Shown: positions 41,599-53,459 of the stretch, one piece after another
Layout: every line of letters begins with the position of its first letter
Position numbering within the stretch: position 1 is the first letter of the stretch
Source: an uncultured Opitutia bacterium
GTDB lineage: Bacteria > Verrucomicrobiota > Verrucomicrobiia > Opitutales > UBA953
Direction of reading: 5' to 3'
Length of the DNA: 64,000 nt
Assembly: GCA_903913915.1 (NCBI GenBank)
Contig: CAIWNE010000087.1
Span: 1-64,000 of the forward strand
Translations under genes and position numbers: made by a program
The notes under the pieces: model-generated
Seen by the model: the letters and a program-made list of their open reading frames with translations, nothing else
Databases searched by the model: none
Told to the model about the DNA's origin: nothing

Positions 41599-42726
41599 TC
41601 AGGGCGACGGAGGCAGGCGGACGGCCTTGCGGATATAGGCCGGCACGTCCACGTCCTGTCCGTCGATGAAGGTCATCGGCGTGCCGCCGAAGAGGCCGCG
41701 GCGCATGGATTCTTCCGTCGCGAACTCGAAGATCGGCTGCGCCGGATCCTCGGCCTTGGCGCCCTTCTTGGGCTTGGCCGGAGCCTTCGGCGCGGGCAGC
41801 GAAGCGCCGAGCACCGAGACTTCGATGCGGTCGCCGAGCGCAGGCTCGATGCGCGCGCAGAGGATCGTGGAGGTCTCGCCCCCGAACCGCGCGCGGACCG
41901 TGGCGACGGCCTCGAAGGCCTCGGTCGAGGTCATCGCAGGACCGCCGGCGACATAGACGAAGAGCGAGGCGACCTTGGCGACCGCGCCGGGCGCGTGCGC
42001 GAGCGGACAGTCGCAGGCCGCACGGGCGGCCTTCATCGCGGCGCCTTCGCCTTCGCCGACGCCGAAGGCGAAGAGCGTGGGCGAGCCGGGCGTGGAAAGG
42101 AGGGAGCGGACCGCGGCGGGATCGACCGCGATGAGCGCGCCGGGCGCGAAGGCGGAGGCGAGGCCGCGGATGGCGCCGCCGACCCAGTTGTCCGCCGCGG
42201 CGAACGATTCGGAGAGCGGAGCGTCGGGCGAGACCTGCTGGAGCAGGAGGTCGTTATGCACCACGACGAGCCCGTGGCACTTCTGCCCGAGCTTGACCGT
42301 GGCTTCGTTGGCCTGACGCATGCGACGTTCGCCTTCGTGCGAGAACGGCATCGTGGCGAAGGAGAGGACGGTCGCGCCGGCCTCGGACGCGAGTCCGGCG
42401 ACCACCGGAGCGGCGCCGCTGCCGGTGCCGCCGCCGAGGCCCGTGACGAGCACCACGAGAGGCACGCCCGCGAACAGGCGACGGAGGCCGGCTTCTTCGG
42501 ATTCCGCGGAAGCGAGCCCCAGCGCGGCTTCGCCGCCCGTGCCCATGCCGCGGGTCTGCGCGCGGCCGAGCTGCAGCGTCTGCGCGGCGCCGGCGGGCAA
42601 GGAACGGGCGTCGGTGTCGAGCAAGGCCACGGCGACCTCGGCCGGCAGCTGCGCTGAGAGGCGCGTGACCATCGAGCACCCCGCCCCGCCGAGGCCGACC
42701 AGAAGGATGGAAGCGGGCGTCGGCAT
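41599..42726 (-). CDS. ftsZ: Divergent FtsZ, T7 catalytic loop degenerate
   Basis: A 375-residue tubulin-like GTPase of the division ring, in its normal place after ftsA. Preserved: T1-like LVGLGGAGCSMV (residues about 9-20; Asn in GGGGN lost), T4 loop GLGGGTGSGAAP (about 96-107), MPFSHEGERRMRQA, HNDLLL and FAAADN. The T7 loop reads I199-A-V-D202-P-A-A-V-R207; in canonical FtsZ it is N-V-D-F-A-D. Asn207 and Asp212 of E. coli are replaced by Ala, only the middle Asp remains. T7 completes the active site of the neighbouring subunit, so hydrolysis is likely lowered. The C-terminal peptide DVDVPAYIRKAVRL fits FtsA binding. Verrucomicrobial FtsZs are known to be divergent; whether others share this loss I cannot check. 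Confidence 0.92.
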   Translation of the reverse strand: MPTPASILLVGLGGAGCSMVTRLSAQLPAEVAVALLDTDARSLPAGAAQTLQLGRAQTRGMGTGGEAALGLASAESEEAGLRRLFAGVPLVVLVTGLGGGTGSGAAPVVAGLASEAGATVLSFATMPFSHEGERRMRQANEATVKLGQKCHGLVVVHNDLLLQQVSPDAPLSESFAAADNWVGGAIRGLASAFAPGALIAVDPAAVRSLLSTPGSPTLFAFGVGEGEGAAMKAARAACDCPLAHAPGAVAKVASLFVYVAGGPAMTSTEAFEAVATVRARFGGETSTILCARIEPALGDRIEVSVLGASLPAPKAPAKPKKGAKAEDPAQPIFEFATEESMRRGLFGGTPMTFIDGQDVDVPAYIRKAVRLPPSP

Positions 42727-42727
42727 C

Positions 42728-43963
42728 TTAGAGACGGAAAAGCTCCTTCAGCTGGGCGAGGAAACCGCGCGGACGACGCACCGGCGGCGGAGCGTCGGTG
42801 ATCGCGGCGGTCATGAGGCCCACCACGCCGGCGTACTCGGGCTTGCGGAGGGATTCGTTCTCGAAGTTCGGGACGCCCACGCGGGCGGAGAGGCCGGTCA
42901 CGAGCTGCACGGCCTCGACGGCGTCGGCCAGGCTGGCGGAACCGCCGGTCAGGATGACGCCGGAAGGGATCATGTTCTGGTCGAGCTTCACGGCGTGGCC
43001 GGGGAAGATCGCCTCGAGGCGGCGGAGCACGTCCTTGCGCACGAATTCGATCGTCTCCTGGTAGCGGAGCGAAAGCACCTGCGTGATCGTGCCGCGGTTG
43101 AACTGCTGGTCGCCGACGCCCTTGTCGCCGTCCTTCCAGATGATCTGGTTGACGTCGGTATCGCGGTGCATCGCCGAACCGAAGCGCACCTTCAGGTCCT
43201 CGGCCGTCTCGCGGCTGATGCGGAGCGCCACGCTGAGGTCGTTGGTCAGGTGCTCGCCGCCCACGGGGATCGAGCCCGCGCAGAGGATATGCTCCTTGTA
43301 ATAGAGGATCCAGTCGGTCGTGCCGGCGCCCATGTCGATCACCAGCACACCGCCCTGCTTGTCGGCGTCGCTGGCGGTCGCGCAGGCCGCGGCGTGCGAG
43401 GCCAGGATGAAGTCGCGGACGCGGATGCTCATGCCGTTCACCATGCCCACGCGCATGCGCATGTTGCCTTCTTCCATCGTCACGCGCCAGAAGTTCACCT
43501 CGAGGCGCTTGCCGGCCATGCCGACGGGGTTGCTGACCGGACGGTTGTCCAGCATCGTCGGCTGGCGCATGTAGAGGATCGTCGCGCGGCCCGAGGGCGG
43601 TTCGAGGCGCTTGGCGGAGGCGACCGCGTCGGCGACGTCCTTGGCGGTGACCTTGCCGTCGTGCGCGGGCACGGCGACGAAGCCCTTCACGCGTTCGCCT
43701 TCGGCGGCGGGGCCGGACAGGGAGAGATAGACGTGGTCGACGGCGCGGCCGGAACCGCGTTCGATGTCGTTGACGACCTCATGGACGCACTGCGTGAGCT
43801 TCTCGAGGTCGGTGACGGTGCCCTTCACGACGCCGTCGGTGCGGCGTTCGCTGAAGCTGAGCATGCGGGCCTTGCCGTCGATGATCTGGCCGAGGAGGCT
43901 GGCGGTCTTGTGCGTGCCGATGTCGATGACGGCGATGAGCGAAGGAAGGGGCTTGGGGGTCAT
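42728..43963 (-). CDS. ftsA: Cell division protein FtsA
   Basis: 411 residues from the ATG at 43963, which overlaps the ftsQ stop (ATGA). Actin-like ATPase that tethers FtsZ to the membrane. Phosphate-1 AVIDIGTHKTASLLG, phosphate-2 VIDMGAGTTDW, adenosine motif SGVILTGGSASL; the C-terminal amphipathic helix RGFLAQLKELFRL fits the membrane anchor. A middle VGMVNGMSIRVRD is in the 1C subdomain region. The stop is 1 bp before ftsZ, which would couple the two. Confidence 0.95.
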   Translation of the reverse strand: MTPKPLPSLIAVIDIGTHKTASLLGQIIDGKARMLSFSERRTDGVVKGTVTDLEKLTQCVHEVVNDIERGSGRAVDHVYLSLSGPAAEGERVKGFVAVPAHDGKVTAKDVADAVASAKRLEPPSGRATILYMRQPTMLDNRPVSNPVGMAGKRLEVNFWRVTMEEGNMRMRVGMVNGMSIRVRDFILASHAAACATASDADKQGGVLVIDMGAGTTDWILYYKEHILCAGSIPVGGEHLTNDLSVALRISRETAEDLKVRFGSAMHRDTDVNQIIWKDGDKGVGDQQFNRGTITQVLSLRYQETIEFVRKDVLRRLEAIFPGHAVKLDQNMIPSGVILTGGSASLADAVEAVQLVTGLSARVGVPNFENESLRKPEYAGVVGLMTAAITDAPPPVRRPRGFLAQLKELFRL

Positions 43964-44943
43964 CGGAGAGGGGCGGAAGGGGCGGGGACGAGGCGAGGTT
44001 CGGGCACGGGGGAGGAGGCGTTGGTGCGATTCTGGATCGACATCTTCAGCACGTAGGCCTGGGCGGTCGTGCCGGGCCGGCGGAGCAGCTCGTCGACGTT
44101 GATGCGCCCGAGCAACGCGAGCTCGTTGCGCCAGTTGGCGGTGGAGAAGACGATCTCGACGAGCGCGGGCCGGTCCATCGGCTGGGTGCCGGGACGCACG
44201 GTGACGCGCAGGTTGGAGCCCGGCGAATCCTCCTGCGCGCCGAAGCAGTCGCGGAGCGAGACCGCCGACCACTGCTTGTAGAGGTTCGGATACTGCGTGC
44301 GCACGACGAGCAGGAACGGGGCGGCGATCTCGATGCCTTCGACGAGCATCTTGTCGTCGCTGCCGGTGGAACGGTAGTCCTGGATCTCGGGCAGGCTGCG
44401 GACGGCCTGCTCGGGGTAGCCGGCGCCGGCGAAGGTCTGGCCGTCGGAAGCCACGAGGCGCACCTGGATCGGCGAATTCTTGCCGGACTGGGTGGTGATC
44501 CGGGCGACCGCGAGGCGCTCGCGCAGCGAGATCTCGAGCGAGCCGTCGTTGCGGCGGCGGACGTCGGCGGCGACGACCTGGTTGTCCGACTCGAGGTCGG
44601 ACTTGATGGCGCGCACGTCGCGTCCGAAGCCGTCGGGTCCGTTGGCGACGATCTTCTTCACGAAGTCCGCGGCCAGGAAGCCGTCGGTCTTGAAACGGAG
44701 GGTGCCGCCCGCGGGGGCGGTCGTGGCGGATTCGTCGAGGGCCCACCAGAGCACGCCGACGACGGCGGCGAAGAAGATCACCGCGAGGACCGTGGGCAGT
44801 TTGGAGCGCACGGCGCGCTTGCGGCCGATCTCGCCCTCGGGGACGCGGTTGACGTCCTGCGGCACGAGCGCGCGCCAATCACGGTCGGCCGGGCCCATGA
44901 AGGCGTCGCGGCGCTTGCGGAAGAGGTTGTCGAAGAGGCCCAT
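43960..44943 (-). CDS. ftsQ: Cell division protein FtsQ (POTRA-like, bitopic)
   Basis: A 327-residue protein with N-terminal basic cytoplasmic part (about 1-50, RKRRDAF and KRAVRSK), a single TM helix (about 51-70, LAVIFFAAVVGVLWWA) and a periplasmic POTRA domain (about 80-150) with a beta domain behind. Links early divisome proteins to FtsL/FtsB and FtsW/FtsI. It overlaps ftsA by 4 bp and starts 2 bp after ddl. Confidence 0.85.
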   Translation of the reverse strand: MGLFDNLFRKRRDAFMGPADRDWRALVPQDVNRVPEGEIGRKRAVRSKLPTVLAVIFFAAVVGVLWWALDESATTAPAGGTLRFKTDGFLAADFVKKIVANGPDGFGRDVRAIKSDLESDNQVVAADVRRRNDGSLEISLRERLAVARITTQSGKNSPIQVRLVASDGQTFAGAGYPEQAVRSLPEIQDYRSTGSDDKMLVEGIEIAAPFLLVVRTQYPNLYKQWSAVSLRDCFGAQEDSPGSNLRVTVRPGTQPMDRPALVEIVFSTANWRNELALLGRINVDELLRRPGTTAQAYVLKMSIQNRTNASSPVPEPRLVPAPSAPLR

Positions 44944-44945
44944 GT

Positions 44946-45869
44946 TCAGCGGCGGACGGGTTGGGCGGCGCGCGCGAGGGCCGGGGCGGCCATGCGGCGG
45001 ACGAGGGCGGGGAAGTCGAGGCCGACGCAGGAAGCGCTCTTGGGCATCAGGCTGGTTTCGGTCATGCCGGGCATCGTGTTGATCTCGAGGAAATAGAACC
45101 TTCCGTCAGGCTCAAGGAAGACATCCGCGCGGGCGAAATCCCGGCAGCCGCAGGCGGCGAAGAGCCGGGCGGCGGCCGCGCCGATGGCGGCGGTGGCTTC
45201 CGGGCCCACGGGCGCAGGGAAGCGATACTCCGAGGCGCCCTTGGTATATTTGGTCTTATAATCGTACACGCCGGTCAGGGGGACGATCTCGACGAGCCCC
45301 ATGGGCTGGCCGTCCAGGAGACCGATGGACATCTCGCGGCCGCGGAGGCGGCGTTCGGCCATCCATTGGCCGGAAGCGGGTATCTCGGCCAGGGCCTTGG
45401 CCACGGCGGCCTCCCCTTCCAGCATGTAGAGACCGACGCTGCTGCCCTGGTCCGAAGGCTTGATGACGACCTGCTCGCCCAAGGCGGCCACGAGCGCGGC
45501 GGCGGTCGGCTTGGCGGCGCCCGCGAAGGCGACCTCAGGGATGGCGGGGACGTCGGCGCCGCGCATGGCGCGCTTGGTCGCGACCTTGTCCATGCAGAGT
45601 CGGTTGGCGACGGATCCGCAGCCGGCGAAGGCGATGCCGCGGGCTTCCATCTCGGCCTGGGCGCGGCCGTCCTCACCCCAGCCGCCGTGCAGGACGGGCA
45701 GGACGACGTGCCTGGCGCCGTCGAGCCAGCCGGGCAGGACGTCGGCCTCGAGCTCGACGAGACGAGCGCCCGGGAGCGCCGACGCCACGGCCTTGCCGGA
45801 GCGCAGCGAGACCTCGCGTTCGGAGGAAAGGGCGCCGCAGAGGACGATGATTTCAGGGACGAAGGTCAT
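44946..45869 (-). CDS. ddl: D-alanine-D-alanine ligase
   Basis: 307 residues from the ATG at 45869, overlapping the murC/B stop by 4 bp. Adds ATP-dependent D-Ala-D-Ala for the pentapeptide. Motifs: LSSEREVSLRSG, LPVLHGGWGEDG, VIKPSDQGSSVG, ARADVFLEPDGRFYFLEINTMPGMT. In Chlamydiae, Ddl is fused to MurC; here MurC is fused to MurB and Ddl is separate. Confidence 0.95.
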   Translation of the reverse strand: MTFVPEIIVLCGALSSEREVSLRSGKAVASALPGARLVELEADVLPGWLDGARHVVLPVLHGGWGEDGRAQAEMEARGIAFAGCGSVANRLCMDKVATKRAMRGADVPAIPEVAFAGAAKPTAAALVAALGEQVVIKPSDQGSSVGLYMLEGEAAVAKALAEIPASGQWMAERRLRGREMSIGLLDGQPMGLVEIVPLTGVYDYKTKYTKGASEYRFPAPVGPEATAAIGAAAARLFAACGCRDFARADVFLEPDGRFYFLEINTMPGMTETSLMPKSASCVGLDFPALVRRMAAPALARAAQPVRR

Positions 45870-48142
45870 AGCAGTTCCTTCCATTCGCGGCCGAGGGCGA
45901 CGATCTCCGGCTGGAGCTCGACGCCTTGGCGCGACTTCACCTCGGCGCGGACGGCGCGCATGAGTTCGATGAAGTCGGCGGCCTTGGCGTCGCCGGCGTT
46001 GACGAGGAAGTTGGCGTGCGTCGGCGAGACGGAGACCGGACCGACGGCGCGGCCCTTGAGCCCGCTGACGTCGATGAGGCGGCCGGCCCTGTCGCCTTCG
46101 GGATTCTTGAACACGCAGCCGGCGCTGGCCTCGCGGGGCTGGGAGGCGCGGCGTTGCGCGGCCATGTCGTCCATGCGCGCGCGGATGGCGGCGGGTTCGT
46201 CGCGGCCGGCCGCGCGGAGCACGGCCGAGAGGACCACGGAGCCGTGCAGCTGCGGGCAGTCGCGGTAAAGGGCGTCGAAGCTGTCGCGTCGCGCGGCGCG
46301 CACCCGGCCCTGCGGGGTCAGCCATTCGATCGATTCCACGACGTCGAAGATCCAGCCGCCCATCGCGCCGGCGTTCATGCGCAGCGAGCCGCCGACCGTG
46401 CCGGGGATGCCTTCGAGGAATTCGAAACCCTTCCAGCCTTCGCGCGCGGCGAAACCGCAGAGTTCCTTGAGGCGCGTGCCGCCGCCGACGCGCAGGCGGC
46501 CTTCGCCGAGGTCGGTGACGGACCCCCAATGGGCCGCGTCGAGATGCAGGATGAGCCCGTCGTAGCCTTCGTCGGGCACGAGGAGGTTGGAGCCGCGCCC
46601 GAGGGCGAACCAACGCAGGTCGAGCTCCGCGGCGGCGCGGAGCAACGCGACGATGTCGTCGACGGCCGCCGGCTCCGCATACCAGCGGGCGACGCCGCCG
46701 AGGCCGAGCGTGGTATGACGGGCGAGCGGCTCGTTGGCGCGCAGCACGCAATCCGCGGAAAGGCGGCCGGAGACGAGGTCCGGCAGGTCGAGCGAAAGGA
46801 TGTCGTCGCCGCGGCGGCGGAGCACCTTGGCGTAGGCTTCGGCGTCGCGCTCGATGTCGCCCGCGCCCACGAAGGCCACGACCGTGTCGGCGCCCTGGGC
46901 GAGGCCGTCGAGCAAGGCAGGCAGGCCGCGGCGGTCCTCGACGAGGCGATGCGAAGACCCGGCCACGATCGCGTCGGAGCCGCCGCCTTCGACGGCGGCC
47001 TCGCCGGCGGAGTAGACCGGCAGCACCAAGGCATGGTCGGCGACGGCGAGGGCGTCGCGGAACTCGCGGGAGTATTGGCGCGTGCGCGTGTGACGATGCG
47101 GCTGGAAGACGACGACGAGGCGGCCCGCGTGCGTCTCGCGGACCCAGTTGAGCAGCGCCGCGATCTCCGTCGGGTGATGCGCGTAGTCGGCGAGCACGCG
47201 GAGACCCGTGCGTTCGAAGAGCACGTCCTGGCGGCGACGGATACCACGCCAGCGGGCGAGCGGTTCGGCGACGAGTCCGCCGGTGATGAAGTGCGTGACG
47301 GCGAGCGCCAGCGAGGCGTTCGAACGGTTGAAGGTGCCCGCGACGGGCAGGTTGAACTGGCCGTGGGGGAAACGCCCCTCGAGCGAGACCACCGAGGAGG
47401 AATGCCCGCCTTGCACGAGCCGGAAGGAATAATCGCCGCCCTCGCCGACGCGGATCACCGGGACCTTGAGGCCGGCGACGAGCCGCTCGAGGCGTTCGTT
47501 GCCGACAGGGATCACGACGGCGGTGCGGGTGCGTTCGAACAGCGCGCGGAAGACGCCCTCGAGCGCGGCTTCGTCGCGGTAATAGTCAGGATGGTCCCAG
47601 TCGAGGTTCACCGCGACGGTGACGTCGGGCGAGAACGCGCCGATCGTGCCGTCGCTCTCGTCGACTTCGGCCACGACCCATGGCGACGTCGCGGAGGCGC
47701 GGGCGGGCGGGAAGGTCGGGTCGCGGAAGAGGCCGCCGAGCACGTAGCCGAAGTCGGCCTCGGCGCTGGCGAGCGCCGCGACGAGCAGGCCGCAGGTGGT
47801 CGTCTTGCCGTGGCTGCCGCAGACGGCGACGAAACGACGCTTGGCGACGGCTTCGGCGAGGAGTTCGCCGCGACGCAGCGTGCGCACCTCATGGCGGCCG
47901 GCGAGCGCGAGCGCGGCGTGGCCGGGCTTCACCGCGCTGGAGCGGCCGACGACGGAAGGGCGGCGGCCCGCGGCCCAGGGATCGCGCAGCAGCGGGATGT
48001 CGGCGTCGGCGAGCTGGAGTTCCATGGGGCTGCCCGTCGAGTCGTCCCAGCCCGAGACGTCCCAGCCCTCCCCTTTCAGGTAGATGGCGAGCGGACCGAC
48101 GCCCATGCCGCAGGCGCCGAGCATCCAGGCGGAGGGGCTCAT
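45866..48142 (-). CDS. murC/murB: MurC-MurB fusion protein
   Basis: 758 residues from the ATG at 48142 (MSPSAWMLGAC). Residues 1 to about 455 are UDP-MurNAc-L-Ala ligase (MurC): ATP loop GSHGKTTT (about 107), and later DYAHHPTEIAALL, QPHRHTRTRQY. From about 465 on is UDP-GlcNAc-enolpyruvate reductase (MurB): HTTLGLGGVARWYAEP, GRGSNLLVPDEG, FLEGIPGTVGGSLRMNAGAMG and SAGCVFKNPEG (Cys at the general acid position that is Ser229 in E. coli). No stop, frameshift or start lies at the junction, so it is one polypeptide. Both reactions are successive (MurB then MurC), so channelling is possible. Confidence 0.95.
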   Translation of the reverse strand: MSPSAWMLGACGMGVGPLAIYLKGEGWDVSGWDDSTGSPMELQLADADIPLLRDPWAAGRRPSVVGRSSAVKPGHAALALAGRHEVRTLRRGELLAEAVAKRRFVAVCGSHGKTTTCGLLVAALASAEADFGYVLGGLFRDPTFPPARASATSPWVVAEVDESDGTIGAFSPDVTVAVNLDWDHPDYYRDEAALEGVFRALFERTRTAVVIPVGNERLERLVAGLKVPVIRVGEGGDYSFRLVQGGHSSSVVSLEGRFPHGQFNLPVAGTFNRSNASLALAVTHFITGGLVAEPLARWRGIRRRQDVLFERTGLRVLADYAHHPTEIAALLNWVRETHAGRLVVVFQPHRHTRTRQYSREFRDALAVADHALVLPVYSAGEAAVEGGGSDAIVAGSSHRLVEDRRGLPALLDGLAQGADTVVAFVGAGDIERDAEAYAKVLRRRGDDILSLDLPDLVSGRLSADCVLRANEPLARHTTLGLGGVARWYAEPAAVDDIVALLRAAAELDLRWFALGRGSNLLVPDEGYDGLILHLDAAHWGSVTDLGEGRLRVGGGTRLKELCGFAAREGWKGFEFLEGIPGTVGGSLRMNAGAMGGWIFDVVESIEWLTPQGRVRAARRDSFDALYRDCPQLHGSVVLSAVLRAAGRDEPAAIRARMDDMAAQRRASQPREASAGCVFKNPEGDRAGRLIDVSGLKGRAVGPVSVSPTHANFLVNAGDAKAADFIELMRAVRAEVKSRQGVELQPEIVALGREWKELL

Positions 48143-49227
48143 GCGGCGGGGGTCCGGCGGCGGCCGGCGAGCGCCAGGGTTTCCCGGGCGAGTTCCTCCC
48201 AACGATTGGAAGCGTCGGCCAAGGCCAGCGCATCACGCATCACGGACAGCGCGGCGACGTCGGCGAGGCGGTCGAAGACGACGGTCGAAAGCCTCGCGAG
48301 GTCGGACTCGGCGAGCAGGATCGCCGCGCCCGCCTGCTCGCTCTGGCGGGCGTTGGCCGTCTGATGGTCGTCGGCCGCGCGCGGATAAGGGACGAGGACC
48401 GCCGGCGTGCGGCAGGTGGCGAGCTCGGCGAGCGTCCCCGCGCCGGCGCGCGTGACGGCGAGGTCGGCGGCGGAATAGGCCATCGCCATCTGGTGGCAGA
48501 ACGGGACGAACTTCACGGACGACTGCGGGGCGCGCACCTCGTCCTCGCGGCCGCCCGGTCCGGTGAGGCAGAGCACATGGACGCCGCGGATCGCGAACTC
48601 CTCGAGATTGTCCTCCACCCAGCGGTTGAGCGACGAAGCGCCTTGGCTGCCTCCCGTGACGAGCACCAGGCGGCCCGTCGCAGGCAGGCCGAGCGCACGG
48701 CGGGCGGCGTCGCGGGCCTGCGGACGGATCTCGGCGCGCACCGGATAGCCGGAATCATGCTGACGCTCCGCGGCGAGGCCCGGCAGGCGCACCCCGGCGG
48801 GAAGATGCACCGAGTCGGCGAAACGGGCGATGAGACGCACCGCCTTGCCGGGCCTGCGGTTCGCCTCATGCACCAGCACGGGGATGCCGGAGAGACGGCA
48901 CGCGAGCGCGGGACCGAGGCTCATGAAGCCGCCGAAGCACACCAGGGCGTCGGGGCGGAAACGCCGGAGCAGACGCCACGAAGACCAGACCGCGCCGAGC
49001 AGCGCCGGGAAGAAGAGCAGCTTGGCGACCAGGCCCGGACCGAAGCCGCGTCCCTTGCCCGGCACGAAGCTGAGGCGCGGGTAGTTGGACGTCATGCGCG
49101 CGTCGACGGCCTTGCTGCTGACGACCAGCAGGCACTCGTGGCCGTCCTCCGTGAGCCGCTGGGCGAGGGCGATGCCCGGGGCGAGATGCCCGCCGGTACC
49201 GCCGCACGCGAGCAGCACGCGGCTCAT
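48139..49227 (-). CDS. murG: UDP-GlcNAc:lipid I transferase MurG
   Basis: 362 residues from the ATG at 49227, overlapping ftsW by 4 bp. GT-B transferase making lipid II at the inner face of the membrane. Motifs GGTGGHLAPGIALAQRL, CFGGFMSLGPALACR, HEANRRPGKAVRL, VTGGSQGASSLN, TRAGAGTLAEL. MurG lacks a separate TM; a hydrophobic patch LLFFPALLGAVW is present. Confidence 0.95.
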   Translation of the reverse strand: MSRVLLACGGTGGHLAPGIALAQRLTEDGHECLLVVSSKAVDARMTSNYPRLSFVPGKGRGFGPGLVAKLLFFPALLGAVWSSWRLLRRFRPDALVCFGGFMSLGPALACRLSGIPVLVHEANRRPGKAVRLIARFADSVHLPAGVRLPGLAAERQHDSGYPVRAEIRPQARDAARRALGLPATGRLVLVTGGSQGASSLNRWVEDNLEEFAIRGVHVLCLTGPGGREDEVRAPQSSVKFVPFCHQMAMAYSAADLAVTRAGAGTLAELATCRTPAVLVPYPRAADDHQTANARQSEQAGAAILLAESDLARLSTVVFDRLADVAALSVMRDALALADASNRWEELARETLALAGRRRTPAA

Positions 49228-50438
49228 GCGCGCGCCTCCTTGGCCTCGAAGGCCGGCTGGGCCGAAGCGCGGATGCAGTTCAGGACGAGGCCGACCATGC
49301 AGCCCATGATGACGAGATTGGTGCCGCCGTAGCTGATGAACGGGAGCGAGATGCCCTTGGTCGGCAGCAGGCCCGTCACCACGCCCATGTTGATGAGCGC
49401 CTGGAGGACGAGGAAGAGCGTGGCGCCGAGGCAGACGTTGAAGCGGTAGAGATCCGCGGAATGACGCATCGCGCGGTAGGCGCACCAGAAGATGCCGAGG
49501 TAGACCGCGGCCACGAGCGTCGTCGCGACGAGGCCGTATTCCTCGCCGATCACCGAGAAGACGAAGTCCGTGTGCGCTTCCGGCAGGTAGGCGCGCCCCT
49601 GGATGCCGTTGGCCGCGCCCTTGCCGGTGAGGCCGCCGACGCCGAAGGCGACCATGCCTTCGAAGAGCTGGTAAGCCTCGTCGCCGCGCTTCTCCCAGGG
49701 CTCGAGGAACGAAGTGAAGCGGCGGAGCCGGTTGGGCCAGTTGAGGATCAGGACGGTGAAGCCGCTGAGCCCGATGAGGAAGGTCGGGACGACGTAGGCC
49801 CAGCGCACGCCGGAGACCAGCATCATCGTGCCGCCCACCGCGCAGCAGAGGATGATCGTGCCGAGGTCGGGACCGAGGGCGATGAAGCCCGCGATGGTCA
49901 CCAGCACCGCCACCGGCTTCACGAAGCCTTCGCGGCAGTCGATCCAGCCGAGCGGCGTGAAGAGGTAAGGCTCGCGCGCGCTGAGCCGATAGATCGCGAA
50001 CTTGTTCGGCAACGTATGCCGCTGCATGCGGGCGAGGACGTCGGAAAGCACGACCACCAAGGCGAGCTTGCCGAGGTCCGAGGCCTGCAGGCGGAAGAAA
50101 CCGAAGTCGATCCAGCGCCACGAGCCGTTCACCGAGACGCCGATGTGCGGGATGCGCGCGAGGAACATCGCGACGCAGGCGCCGCCGAGGATGTACCAGC
50201 GCCACTCACGCGCCTTCTCGAGGTCGATCCGGAAGAACACGTAGCCGGCCACGATCGCGATCGGCACGTAGGCCAGCTGACGATAGAACGCCGCGGTGCG
50301 GTTGCTCGACGAAAGCGAGATGCCGGCGCTGTACTGCACCACCAGCCCGAACAGCGCCAGGGACAAGGCGAGCAGCAGGATGCCCCAGGAGTACCCACCC
50401 AGGGTTCCCGGACCTTCCTGCTTCTCCTTGATGACCAT
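49224..50438 (-). CDS. ftsW: Lipid II polymerase FtsW
   Basis: A 404-residue SEDS protein, about 10 TM helices. Family core: NGSWRWIDFGFFRLQASDLGKLALVV, LGPDLGTIIL, FSVIGEEYGLV, TGLLPTKGISLPFISYGGTNL (start of the SEDS C-terminal signature). Glycosyltransferase of the divisome, partner of FtsI. There is a longer loop FAIYRLSAREPYLFTPLGWIDCREGF between TM segments than in typical FtsW. Starts 20 bp after the LysM gene. Confidence 0.94.
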   Translation of the reverse strand: MVIKEKQEGPGTLGGYSWGILLLALSLALFGLVVQYSAGISLSSSNRTAAFYRQLAYVPIAIVAGYVFFRIDLEKAREWRWYILGGACVAMFLARIPHIGVSVNGSWRWIDFGFFRLQASDLGKLALVVVLSDVLARMQRHTLPNKFAIYRLSAREPYLFTPLGWIDCREGFVKPVAVLVTIAGFIALGPDLGTIILCCAVGGTMMLVSGVRWAYVVPTFLIGLSGFTVLILNWPNRLRRFTSFLEPWEKRGDEAYQLFEGMVAFGVGGLTGKGAANGIQGRAYLPEAHTDFVFSVIGEEYGLVATTLVAAVYLGIFWCAYRAMRHSADLYRFNVCLGATLFLVLQALINMGVVTGLLPTKGISLPFISYGGTNLVIMGCMVGLVLNCIRASAQPAFEAKEARA

Positions 50439-50458
50439 GGCGCGGCGCGAGGTTCAGC

Positions 50459-51031
50459 TTACTTCTTGTCGGCCTGAGCCGGAGCGGCGTCGGCCGGCTT
50501 GGCGCCCGTGAGCGGGACGAGCTTGAGCGGGGCGAAGGTCGGGGCGGGCTCGGCCGGCGCGGCGGACGTGGTCGCGGGCTTGGCGGCGGACGCGGCGGAC
50601 TTCGTACCGGCCTTCGTGCCGGCCTTCGTCGGAGCCTTGGAGGCGGCGGGGATGGTCAGCACCTGACCGGGCTTGAGGTCGGCGTTGAGGCTGAGCTTGT
50701 TGGCCTTGGCGAGGTCGGCGCGGGAGACCTTTTCGCTGTCGGCGATGCTCATGAGGGTCTCGCCCTTGGCGACCGTACGCTTGCCGCCGGGGCCGACGGC
50801 GCCGACGGGCGTGAGCTTCGTCGGCACGGGAGCAGGGAGGCGGTCGGCGACCGGCAGCGGCGCGGCGACGGGAGCGACCGGGGTGGTGGCGCGGGCTCCG
50901 CCGGAGAAGGCGGCGAGGTCGCCGGTCTGCTCGAAGCCGCTGGTGCTTCGGCAGCCGTTGACGCCGACGAGGACGGCGATGACGCAGAGGTGCACGAGCA
51001 CGACGGCGGTGACGGTGATGATGGGACGCAT
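50459..51031 (-). CDS. LysM-domain protein in the dcw cluster
   Basis: 190 residues from the ATG at 51031. Hydrophobic anchor (about 6-26) ending VNGC, a possible lipidation Cys at 27. Pro/Ala-rich linker (44-83), LysM domain at about 84-129 (KRTVAKGETLMSIADSEKVS, LNADLKPGQVLTIP), then an Ala/Lys/Pro-rich tail. LysM binds peptidoglycan. Sits between murD (44 bp before) and ftsW (20 bp after), both same strand. Might localise to the septum or tie the divisome to the wall; this is inferred from the place. Confidence 0.85.
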   Translation of the reverse strand: MRPIITVTAVVLVHLCVIAVLVGVNGCRSTSGFEQTGDLAAFSGGARATTPVAPVAAPLPVADRLPAPVPTKLTPVGAVGPGGKRTVAKGETLMSIADSEKVSRADLAKANKLSLNADLKPGQVLTIPAASKAPTKAGTKAGTKSAASAAKPATTSAAPAEPAPTFAPLKLVPLTGAKPADAAPAQADKK

Positions 51032-51075
51032 GATGGTGGTCTTGTTTGGGTGGGTGGGTTGTTTGGTTGGAAAGA

Positions 51076-52350
51076 TCAGACGCGGTTGGCGAGGGCGGTG
51101 GCGGCGCGTTCGAACACGAGGCCGCGCTCGGCGTAGCCACGGAACTGGTCGAAACTCGAGAAGCCGGGGCTCAGCAGGACGACGGCGGGCCCCTGTGCGT
51201 CCTTGGCGGCCGCGACGACGGCGTCCTGGAGCGTCGCGTAGCAACGGGCGGCCTTGCCCGTCTCGTCGAAATGGCGCTTCAGTTCGTCGGCGGTCTCGCC
51301 GATGAGGTAAGCGGAATCGATCAGCGGAGCGATGTTGCGGACGAAGCGGGCGAGGTCGCCGCCCTTCCACTTCCCTCCCCCGATCCAGCGGACCGGGACG
51401 CTGAACTGCGAGAGCGCGGCCTGGACCGCGTGGAAATTCGTGCCCTTCGAGTCGTTCCAGAATTCGACGCCCTTGTTCTCGGCGACCTTGCGCAGGCGAT
51501 GCGGGGGGACGCGGAAGAGACGGGCCGCCTCCTCGAGGTGGCGCATCGGGATGCCGCGCGCCTGCCAGTACTTGCAGAGGATGGCCCAGTTCTCGCGCTG
51601 CGGCCAGGAATCGAAGACCGATCCCGGGGGCACCGTGTCGGCGACCTCGGCGCGCGTGGCGACGAGCGCCTCGGCGGGCAGCTCGATGCCGAACGAACGG
51701 GCGGCGGACACGACGGATTCGCCGACCACGAGGATACCGCCGGGCATCATGCGCTCGATCAGCCTGAACTTCGCGCGGAAGTAGCTCTCCATGTCGCCGT
51801 GCCGGTCGAGATGGTCCTCGTCGAAGTTGGTCCAGAGCACCGCCTCGGGCGTGAAATGCCGGAGGTCCTCGGCCTGGAAGGAGCTCACCTCCACGATCGC
51901 GACGAACGAGCCGTTCGAGACCGTGCGATGGAGCGAAGTGAGCGGGAGGCCGACGTTGCCGCAGGCGATGGCGTCGAGCCCCGAACGCTTGAAGGCGAAC
52001 GAGAGGAATTCGGTGATGGTCGTCTTGCCGTTGGTGCCGGTGATGGCGATGGCGGGGCCGGTCCAGAGCAGCGCCCCGAAGTCGAGCTCGGTCAGGCAAT
52101 GCAGGCCGGCGCGGCGCGCGGCGAGGATCCACGGGTGCGACTGCGCGAAGCCCGGGCTGTAGACCAGGAGATCGTGACGTGCGGCCTCCTCGGGACCGAA
52201 CTGCCGGTTCTCCCCGCGTTCGTCATAGATGACCGAAGCGAAGCCGGCGGTGGCGAGGGATTCCGCGACGGAACGCCCGCTCACGCCCTCGCCGAAGACG
52301 GCGGCGGGCCGGGTGAGCCGGCGGCGGAGGGATTCGGGGAACTCGCTCAT
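51076..52350 (-). CDS. murD: UDP-MurNAc-L-Ala:D-Glu ligase MurD
   Basis: 424 residues from the ATG at 52350 (ATGA with mraY). Mur ligase: GEGVSGRSVAESL at the N-terminus, ATP loop AITGTNGKTTITEFL, VEVSSFQAEDLRH, WTNFDEDHLDRHGDM, NDSKGTNFHAVQAAL and LLSPGFSSFDQFRGYAERG. All steps as known for the family. Confidence 0.96.
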   Translation of the reverse strand: MSEFPESLRRRLTRPAAVFGEGVSGRSVAESLATAGFASVIYDERGENRQFGPEEAARHDLLVYSPGFAQSHPWILAARRAGLHCLTELDFGALLWTGPAIAITGTNGKTTITEFLSFAFKRSGLDAIACGNVGLPLTSLHRTVSNGSFVAIVEVSSFQAEDLRHFTPEAVLWTNFDEDHLDRHGDMESYFRAKFRLIERMMPGGILVVGESVVSAARSFGIELPAEALVATRAEVADTVPPGSVFDSWPQRENWAILCKYWQARGIPMRHLEEAARLFRVPPHRLRKVAENKGVEFWNDSKGTNFHAVQAALSQFSVPVRWIGGGKWKGGDLARFVRNIAPLIDSAYLIGETADELKRHFDETGKAARCYATLQDAVVAAAKDAQGPAVVLLSPGFSSFDQFRGYAERGLVFERAATALANRV

Positions 52351-53459
52351 CGGAGCTTCAGGGAGAGCAGGCCGAGGAGGCCGCACAGAAGGGAGAGGAT
52401 CCAGAAGCGCGCCACGACCTTCGTCGCAGGCCAGCCCTTCTTCTGGAAATGATGATGGATGGGCGTCATCAGGAACAGGCGCTTGCCGCCCGTCCGCTTG
52501 AAATAGGCCACCTGCAGCATGACCGAGACCGCCTCGACGACGAACACGCCGCCGACGATCGCGAGCAGGAACGGCTGGTGCATCAGGCACGCCACGGCGC
52601 CGAGTCCGCCGCCGAGCCCGAGCGCGCCGACGTCGCCCATGTAGATCTCGGCCGGGGCCGCGTTATGCCAGAGGAAGACGAGGCTGCCGCCGACGAGGGC
52701 CGAGCAGAACACCGCGAGCTCGCCGGCGCCCGGCACGTAGCTGATGCGCAGGTAGGTGGCGAACTCATGGTGGCCGGCGAGATAGGCGACCGCGCCGAGT
52801 ATCATGGTGGTGATGAGCACGCAGCCGATCGCGAGCCCGTCGAGGCCGTCGGTGAGGTTGACGGCGTTGGAGCAGCCCACGCAGACCAGCACGAAGAAGA
52901 CGACGGCGACGCCGAGGCACGCGAGGAAAGGCCAGCCGAAGGACTTCGCGGACCAGAGCGGGCCGTTGAGGATGGGCAGCCAGACCTCGCAGAGGCTTTC
53001 GCGGTAGGCCGGGTCGAGGAGCACGATGCCGAAGGCGACGAGCGCGACGAGCCCCTGCCCCGCCAGCTTCATGCGGGCCGAGATGCCGTCGGAACTGCCA
53101 TGGCGCACCTTCAGCCAGTCGTCGTAAAGCCCCACGAGGCCCATGCCGACCAGGCACCAGAGCGCCGCGAGCACGAGGACATTGAGGCGCGCCCAGAGGA
53201 GCACCGAGGGGATCATCGCCACGGCGATGATGAGGCCGCCCATGGTCGGGACCTTGCCGCCTTCCTTGGCGAGCTCGCCCATCAGCTTGGCCGAACGCTC
53301 CGGCTGGCGCAGGCGCGCGAGCACCGCGATGAGCCGGCCGGAGAAGAACATGCCCAGCAGCAACGCCGTCACGCCGGCCATGATCGCGCGGACGGAGATG
53401 TACTCGAAGAGTCGGAAAGGTCCCCAGGTGTGGACGAGTTCGCTGAGACGGTAAAGCAT
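52347..53459 (-). CDS. mraY: Phospho-MurNAc-pentapeptide transferase MraY
   Basis: A 370-residue protein with about 10 TM helices, makes lipid I. Motifs: PTMGGLIIAVA, LVGLYDDWLKV, NAVNLTDGLDGLA, GDVGALGLGGGLG, LMTPIHHHFQKKGW (His cluster). Start at 53459 is 1 bp after the murF stop; its stop overlaps murD. Confidence 0.97.
   Translation of the reverse strand: MLYRLSELVHTWGPFRLFEYISVRAIMAGVTALLLGMFFSGRLIAVLARLRQPERSAKLMGELAKEGGKVPTMGGLIIAVAMIPSVLLWARLNVLVLAALWCLVGMGLVGLYDDWLKVRHGSSDGISARMKLAGQGLVALVAFGIVLLDPAYRESLCEVWLPILNGPLWSAKSFGWPFLACLGVAVVFFVLVCVGCSNAVNLTDGLDGLAIGCVLITTMILGAVAYLAGHHEFATYLRISYVPGAGELAVFCSALVGGSLVFLWHNAAPAEIYMGDVGALGLGGGLGAVACLMHQPFLLAIVGGVFVVEAVSVMLQVAYFKRTGGKRLFLMTPIHHHFQKKGWPATKVVARFWILSLLCGLLGLLSLKLR

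Follow-up and report, generated by a model that had tools for sequence, protein, structure and literature searches.

The DNA analysed here, a 64,000-nt stretch from an uncultured Opitutia bacterium (the window), encodes an FtsZ whose inter-subunit active site is reduced from Asn-x-Asp-x-x-Asp to one Asp. We consider it probable that a freshwater UBA953-type member of the Opitutales uses this protein as its resident division FtsZ, and that the protein binds GTP and hydrolyzes it at a reduced rate through a single-Asp site based on D209 (E. coli numbering is used unless stated otherwise). GTP hydrolysis by FtsZ is held to set treadmilling and the pace of septal synthesis. Its T7 aspartates are generally regarded as conserved and indispensable, in line with the failure or slowing seen in S. 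aureus FtsZ mutants and E. coli D212 mutants.

The ftsZ gene and its sequence motifs

The minus strand between positions 41599 and 42726 forms one open frame of 375 aa, and no other gene of the tubulin family was found in the genome. Its T7 (synergy) loop (42106-42132, minus strand, as are all features given here) reads IAVDPAAVR. Since HMMER aligns this segment without gaps to INVDFADVK of Mycobacterium tuberculosis FtsZ, the assignment of the residues is unambiguous: N207 is replaced by Ala, D209 is kept and D212 is replaced by Ala. The canonical T7 pattern N-x-D-x-x-D is thus absent, and the protein has A-x-D-x-x-A. This is how the initial annotation had read the loop, and its remark that the first loop lacks an Asn is likewise confirmed by translation, T1 being GLGGAGCS (42673-42696) with Ser at the N24 position, which is S, A or G across the genus.

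Translation also agrees with the earlier statement that the other hallmark motifs are kept. These include the T4 tubulin signature GGGTGSG (42415-42435), the T5 segment PFSHEGERR with E138 and R142 (42322-42348), the guanine-side residues of T6 (ND, within HND) and H7 (F-x3-D) (42190-42255), and a C-terminal peptide of the FtsA-binding type, DVDVPAYIRK (41626-41655). R142 corresponds to Staphylococcus aureus R143, an Arg-finger-like residue (PMC8936486). Two further segments are partly changed: T2/H2, DTDAR (42604-42618), keeps D45 and has N43 replaced by Asp and Q47 by Arg, and the T3 loop, GMGTGGE (42529-42549), keeps G71 and has N73 replaced by Glu. When 50 Opitutales FtsZs were aligned, D202 of the window protein, the equivalent of E. 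coli D209, was one of only eight invariant columns. In alignment A1, the tail residues G356, D358, D360, P362 and R366 are near-invariant.

Identity of the protein and its dcw context

The protein passes the Pfam cut-offs for both PF00091 (101.6 bits; cut-off 33) and PF12327 (33.3 bits; cut-off 27). Its AlphaFold model has a confident FtsZ fold (mean pLDDT 89.7), and in Foldseek searches the nearest matches are FtsZ crystal structures, including the S. aureus filament 7ohh/7ohk (probability 1.00; TM-score 0.72-0.76 of query). E values for the matches to S. aureus, Bacillus subtilis, M. tuberculosis and E. coli FtsZ are about 1e-28 to 1e-33. The score against the NCBIfam FtsZ equivalog TIGR00065 is 202.5 bits, below the cut-off of 295.2 bits. 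This cut-off is reached in just 27 of 338 sampled Verrucomicrobiota genomes; hence, the shortfall reflects mostly the divergence of the phylum rather than membership in a different family.

The gene lies last in a dcw cluster with the order mraY, murD, ftsW, murG, murC-murB fusion, ddl, ftsQ-like ORF, ftsA, ftsZ. Directly upstream of ftsZ is ftsA (42728-43963; TIGR01174, 244 bits, cut-off 175.85), the product of which ends in an amphipathic-type tail (RGFLAQLKELFRL). In all 173 FtsZ loci in which ftsA was seen (repeat loci counted), it precedes ftsZ and shares its strand. The ftsQ-like ORF (327 aa, 43960-44943) has no Pfam match and was assigned by position, and the genes from ddl to mraY (44946-53459) were assigned by Pfam domains. 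The murC-murB fusion occupies 45866-48202 of this run; Verrucomicrobium spinosum is likewise reported to have such a fusion (PMC12283558).

The initial annotation had raised the prospect that the cell depends on another tubulin homologue and had proposed a search for a second ftsZ or btubA/B. The host draft genome (2.53 Mb, 148 contigs) is 94% complete, and in it the PF00091 profile has a single match, with no second ftsZ, BtubA/B-like gene or other tubulin. The 6% of missing sequence leaves a small gap for a second tubulin, and congeners normally have a single copy too. These data lend no support to dependence on another homologue. Nor does the protein itself belong among the other tubulins. 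BtubA/B, FtsZl1/FtsZl2, CetZ and TubZ share only the tubulin superfamily with it; unlike them, the window protein has an FtsZ_C domain, a dcw location and a place among Opitutales FtsZs. With respect to BtubA/B in particular, the host genome has one PF00091 match, which carries the FtsZ_C domain and lies in the dcw cluster, and with respect to FtsZl1/FtsZl2, which have family-specific inserts or a coiled coil and lie outside the dcw context (PMC2875224), the length of 375 aa and the dcw context do not fit.

Conservation and selection within the genus

The genus includes MAGs of UBA953-type Opitutae, and the isolate names of many of them refer to lakes or surface water. An FtsZ match was present in 46 of the 55 genomes sampled, the window's own included, and full-length orthologues in the other genomes are 63-98% identical to the window FtsZ. 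Among 41 distinct congeneric sequences, position 209 is always D, position 207 is A, P or S, and position 212 is A (39 sequences), S or V. Other residues found in all 41 are D45, E138, R142, N165, F182 and Asp at 186, together with Glu at position 73 and Asp at position 43; Arg occurs at position 47 in 33.

Synonymous codon variation is seen at the T7 motif itself, and median pairwise dN/dS is 0.055 (89 genus pairs with >90% identity). Given the concordance of the 41 congeners, this synonymous variation and the low dN/dS, a sequencing error or pseudogene is ruled out, and the window ftsZ is under purifying selection. In particular, the error at 42106-42132 that had been entertained initially is excluded by the 41 distinct congeners with the same pattern. 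More generally, it is very improbable that the gene is decaying or artefactual (a pseudogene, an assembly error or a non-functional copy) in a cell that divides with another tubulin. Such a reading might draw on the score below the equivalog cut-off, and on the observation that FtsA is better conserved than FtsZ in 97% of genus pairs (mean identity 82% versus 76%). However, most FtsZs of the phylum also fall under that cut-off, and the open frame, the dN/dS value, the concordant sequences, the dcw context and the sole PF00091 match largely refute it.

One genome of the genus (G045) carries two full-length genus-type ftsZ genes (L098/L102), on two contigs, which share 93% and 89% identity with the copy in the window. 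D212 is absent from both, and they probably represent mixed strains in one bin.

Distribution of the T7 acids across the order, class and phylum

E. coli FtsZ served as the reference to which FtsZs from the order, from the phylum and from two control phyla were aligned, and D or E was scored as an acid. One caveat here is that alignment is less certain for the most divergent members. N207, D209 and D212 are each present in 64 of 64 control FtsZs from Pseudomonadota and Bacillota (the 30 best-scoring of about 40). In the Opitutales, by comparison, 140 of 147 main copies have an acid at 209 only, six have both acids and one has neither; the commonest T7 motif is N-L-D-F-A-T-L, and T, A or S is usual at the D212 position. 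The other orders of the class are the mirror image, having mostly lost D209 and kept D/E212. This is the case for 19 of 20 FtsZs (mostly Gly at 209), with the remaining one retaining the acid at 209 only. For the other classes of the phylum (n = 45), we found both acids in 25, only 209 in 13 and only 212 in 7, although the phylum FtsZs fetched were mostly the better-scoring ones and eroded loops may truly spread wider. N207 has been lost in several lineages, and most of the phylum has an acidic residue at T3 position 73. Overall, both acids are absent in only one of 212 scored verrucomicrobial main copies. That one T7 acid is almost always kept supports the reading of the window protein as a single-Asp enzyme.

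Alignment to other verrucomicrobial FtsZs, the check suggested at the outset, thus uncovered the divergence anticipated there, with a T7 motif eroded across the phylum. It also shows that the original claim, loss of two polar residues, was right for the window protein and too narrow in scope, D212 being absent nearly order-wide.

A tree built without the T7 columns unites the Opitutales FtsZs in one supported clade (93 rows, support 99) and places the window genus together with its sister genus, g5, whose T7 motif is P-L-D-P-G-A-L. Judged from these comparisons, the loss of D212 is ancient, having taken place early in the order, and is nearly order-wide; the same comparisons show that N207 was later lost as well, and Q47 changed, in the genus of the window and in its sister lineage. 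There are at least 7 changes at position 209 and at least 15 at position 212 on the tree. A pairwise test on the tree for mutual exclusion of D209 and D212 loss was not significant. Because few events account for most of the pattern, mutual exclusion is suggestive and unproven. Co-loss of N207 and Q47 gave a Fisher P value of 0.011 among the other classes of the phylum and was not significant on the tree.

Several individual sequences stand apart. The sole scored main copy with neither T7 acid is L157 (LINVNFSTL), from G171 of family f8, a 900-contig MAG. In the reduced-genome family f26 (~1-Mb genomes), which lies outside the counts of 147 and 212 and whose alignment is less sure, the T7 segments of L339, L340, L341 and L342 read GNLNNF, CSLSDF, CRLNDF and CNLSDF. 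As these four readable FtsZs have lost D209, the constraint on this residue in the order is not absolute. An apparent second FtsZ in the order (L061, in G265) groups with Pseudomonadota; it was rejected as a probable contaminant. G144 (f21) has, beside its Opitutales-type copy, a second FtsZ (L155) with NVGLDDL, a motif typical of another order. This copy represents either horizontal transfer or contamination and was set aside.

Predicted consequences for GTP hydrolysis

The roles of the T7 residues are best seen in S. aureus FtsZ. There, D210 (E. coli D209) swings to position the catalytic water; D213 (D212) is static and, together with R143, shapes the water site via a bridging water; N208 (N207) and Q48 (Q47) hold the T7 K+ ion, which Q48 locks; and G72 (G71) touches the catalytic water (PMC8936486). 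The window protein resembles S. aureus FtsZ in its fold, GTP-binding loops, swinging Asp, T5 Arg, dcw location and FtsA-binding tail. It retains the equivalents of D210, R143, D46 and G72 and lacks those of N208, D213 and Q48. The changes at N207 and Q47 would be expected to alter the K+ site.

The window protein is predicted to retain GTP binding and the formation of FtsA-anchored filaments. Hydrolysis would proceed through D209, which would place the attacking water with the help of R142 and the T3 glycine. Compared with that of E. coli FtsZ, the reaction is predicted to be slower and to depend less on K+. This prediction of a slower, less K+-dependent, single-Asp GTPase is an analogy, made because of the S. 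aureus residue roles and the behavior of E. coli D212 mutants. If hydrolysis is slower, then filaments should be longer-lived. D212A has 7% of wild-type GTPase activity, as quoted in PMC8142252, and D212G forms static rings (PMC7320174). When FtsZ(D212A) is over-expressed with FtsA in a wild-type E. coli background, cells divide (PMC4383033). These mutants and the window protein lack the same residue in an otherwise intact FtsZ. In the mutants, however, the background is unadapted, whereas the loss seen here is natural, mostly fixed order-wide and accompanied by the N207 and Q47 changes. Weak hydrolysis, as initially proposed, is thus a reasonable expectation from D212A and D212G, whereas an inability to hydrolyze GTP would not follow, because the Asp that is kept is the swinging, water-positioning one.

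In S. aureus FtsZ, either N208L or D213N is enough to suppress assembly (PMC8936486). Given this, it follows that loss of both N207 and D212 should be harmful unless compensated, and E73 in T3 or R47 in H2 could possibly provide some compensation. We think it unlikely that compensation is full, with the new residues (Glu 73, or Arg 47 in place of K+) taking over and GTP being hydrolyzed at an ordinary rate. The gene is under strong constraint across lineages, the Glu 73/Asp 43 pair is invariant and Arg 47 prevalent in the genus, and acidic residues at 73 extend over most of the phylum, all of which would fit. But an acidic residue 73 is not tied to the loss, as it is also common in classes with many FtsZs that keep both T7 acids, and the co-change of N207 and Q47 is unsupported once phylogeny is considered.

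At the other extreme, the filament might be GTPase-dead, a static scaffold turned over by other factors or by spontaneous exchange. A precedent is the inner site of the tubulin heterodimer: in beta-tubulin the residue that matches is non-acidic, and the GTP facing it is not hydrolyzed. The poor hydrolysis of D212 mutants, the static rings of D212G and the absence of both N207 and D212 are consistent with such a filament. We nonetheless regard it as improbable, since D209, R142 and G71, which would be needless in a dead site, are strongly constrained, and since one acid is kept in almost every verrucomicrobial FtsZ. Slow, D209-based hydrolysis is the reading we prefer.

Relation to earlier work

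FtsZ of Verrucomicrobiota is among the most divergent (PMC9871819, PMC12283558), and its accelerated evolution was noted earlier (PMC2474590). The window protein shares this divergent, fast-evolving character with the FtsZs of Verrucomicrobium, Prosthecobacter and Methylacidiphilum. Binary fission is the mode of division in V. spinosum, where ftsZ is essential (PMC12283558). Yee et al. singled out eight core positions of V. spinosum FtsZ as unusual and did not discuss the T7 loop (PMC1845146), and there is no statement on verrucomicrobial T7 loops in PMC12283558, PMC9871819, PMC1845146, PMC5147048 or PMC2474590. In the literature searched, the scope of which excluded the 2007-2008 Pilhofer papers, the order-wide loss of D212, the mirror loss of D209 and the change in the K+ site are undescribed, and we found no biochemical data on Opitutales FtsZ. 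In Candidatus Thiosymbion oneisti, the resident FtsZ is naturally low in GTPase activity (PMC8953583). That protein reportedly has conserved catalytic residues, whereas those of the window FtsZ are changed.

Because almost all of the order lacks the acid at 212, a single catalytic acid is apparently enough for a core enzyme of bacterial division. More tentatively, the whole order may divide with a one-Asp FtsZ (D209, with D212 in the sister orders as the mirror case), in which event the T7 dyad would be dispensable, and single-Asp catalysis or hydrolysis-poor filaments would suffice. The FtsZs of Opitutales and its sister orders are natural, selected single-Asp proteins. As such, they could be used to ask which Asp is truly catalytic and whether division needs the K+ site and fast turnover, and they offer a way to approach the mechanism behind the rapid evolution of verrucomicrobial FtsZ, which was noted long ago.

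Opitutales genomes apparently without FtsZ

The superphylum of Verrucomicrobiota includes phyla that lack FtsZ. Within the Opitutales, neither FtsZ (two profiles) nor a strong FtsA match was detected in genomes of four families (0.8-1.0 Mb, 68-95% complete): G084, G151 and G161 of f7; G102, G119, G133 and G147 of f25; G106, G136, G149, G160 and G170 of f27; and G111 of f28. A Chlamydia-like loss of FtsZ and FtsA is possible in these families; alternatively, the genes may have diverged beyond detection or lie in masked sequence. One further candidate, G155, seemed to lack FtsZ, FtsA, FtsW and Mur proteins; this was an artefact, as the two 20-kb stretches of it that were read (L362, L363) are all N. 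The genomes listed above in which no FtsZ was detected each carry two FtsW/RodA genes, with Mur ligases in the two genomes tested and MreB where checked (L352, G136).
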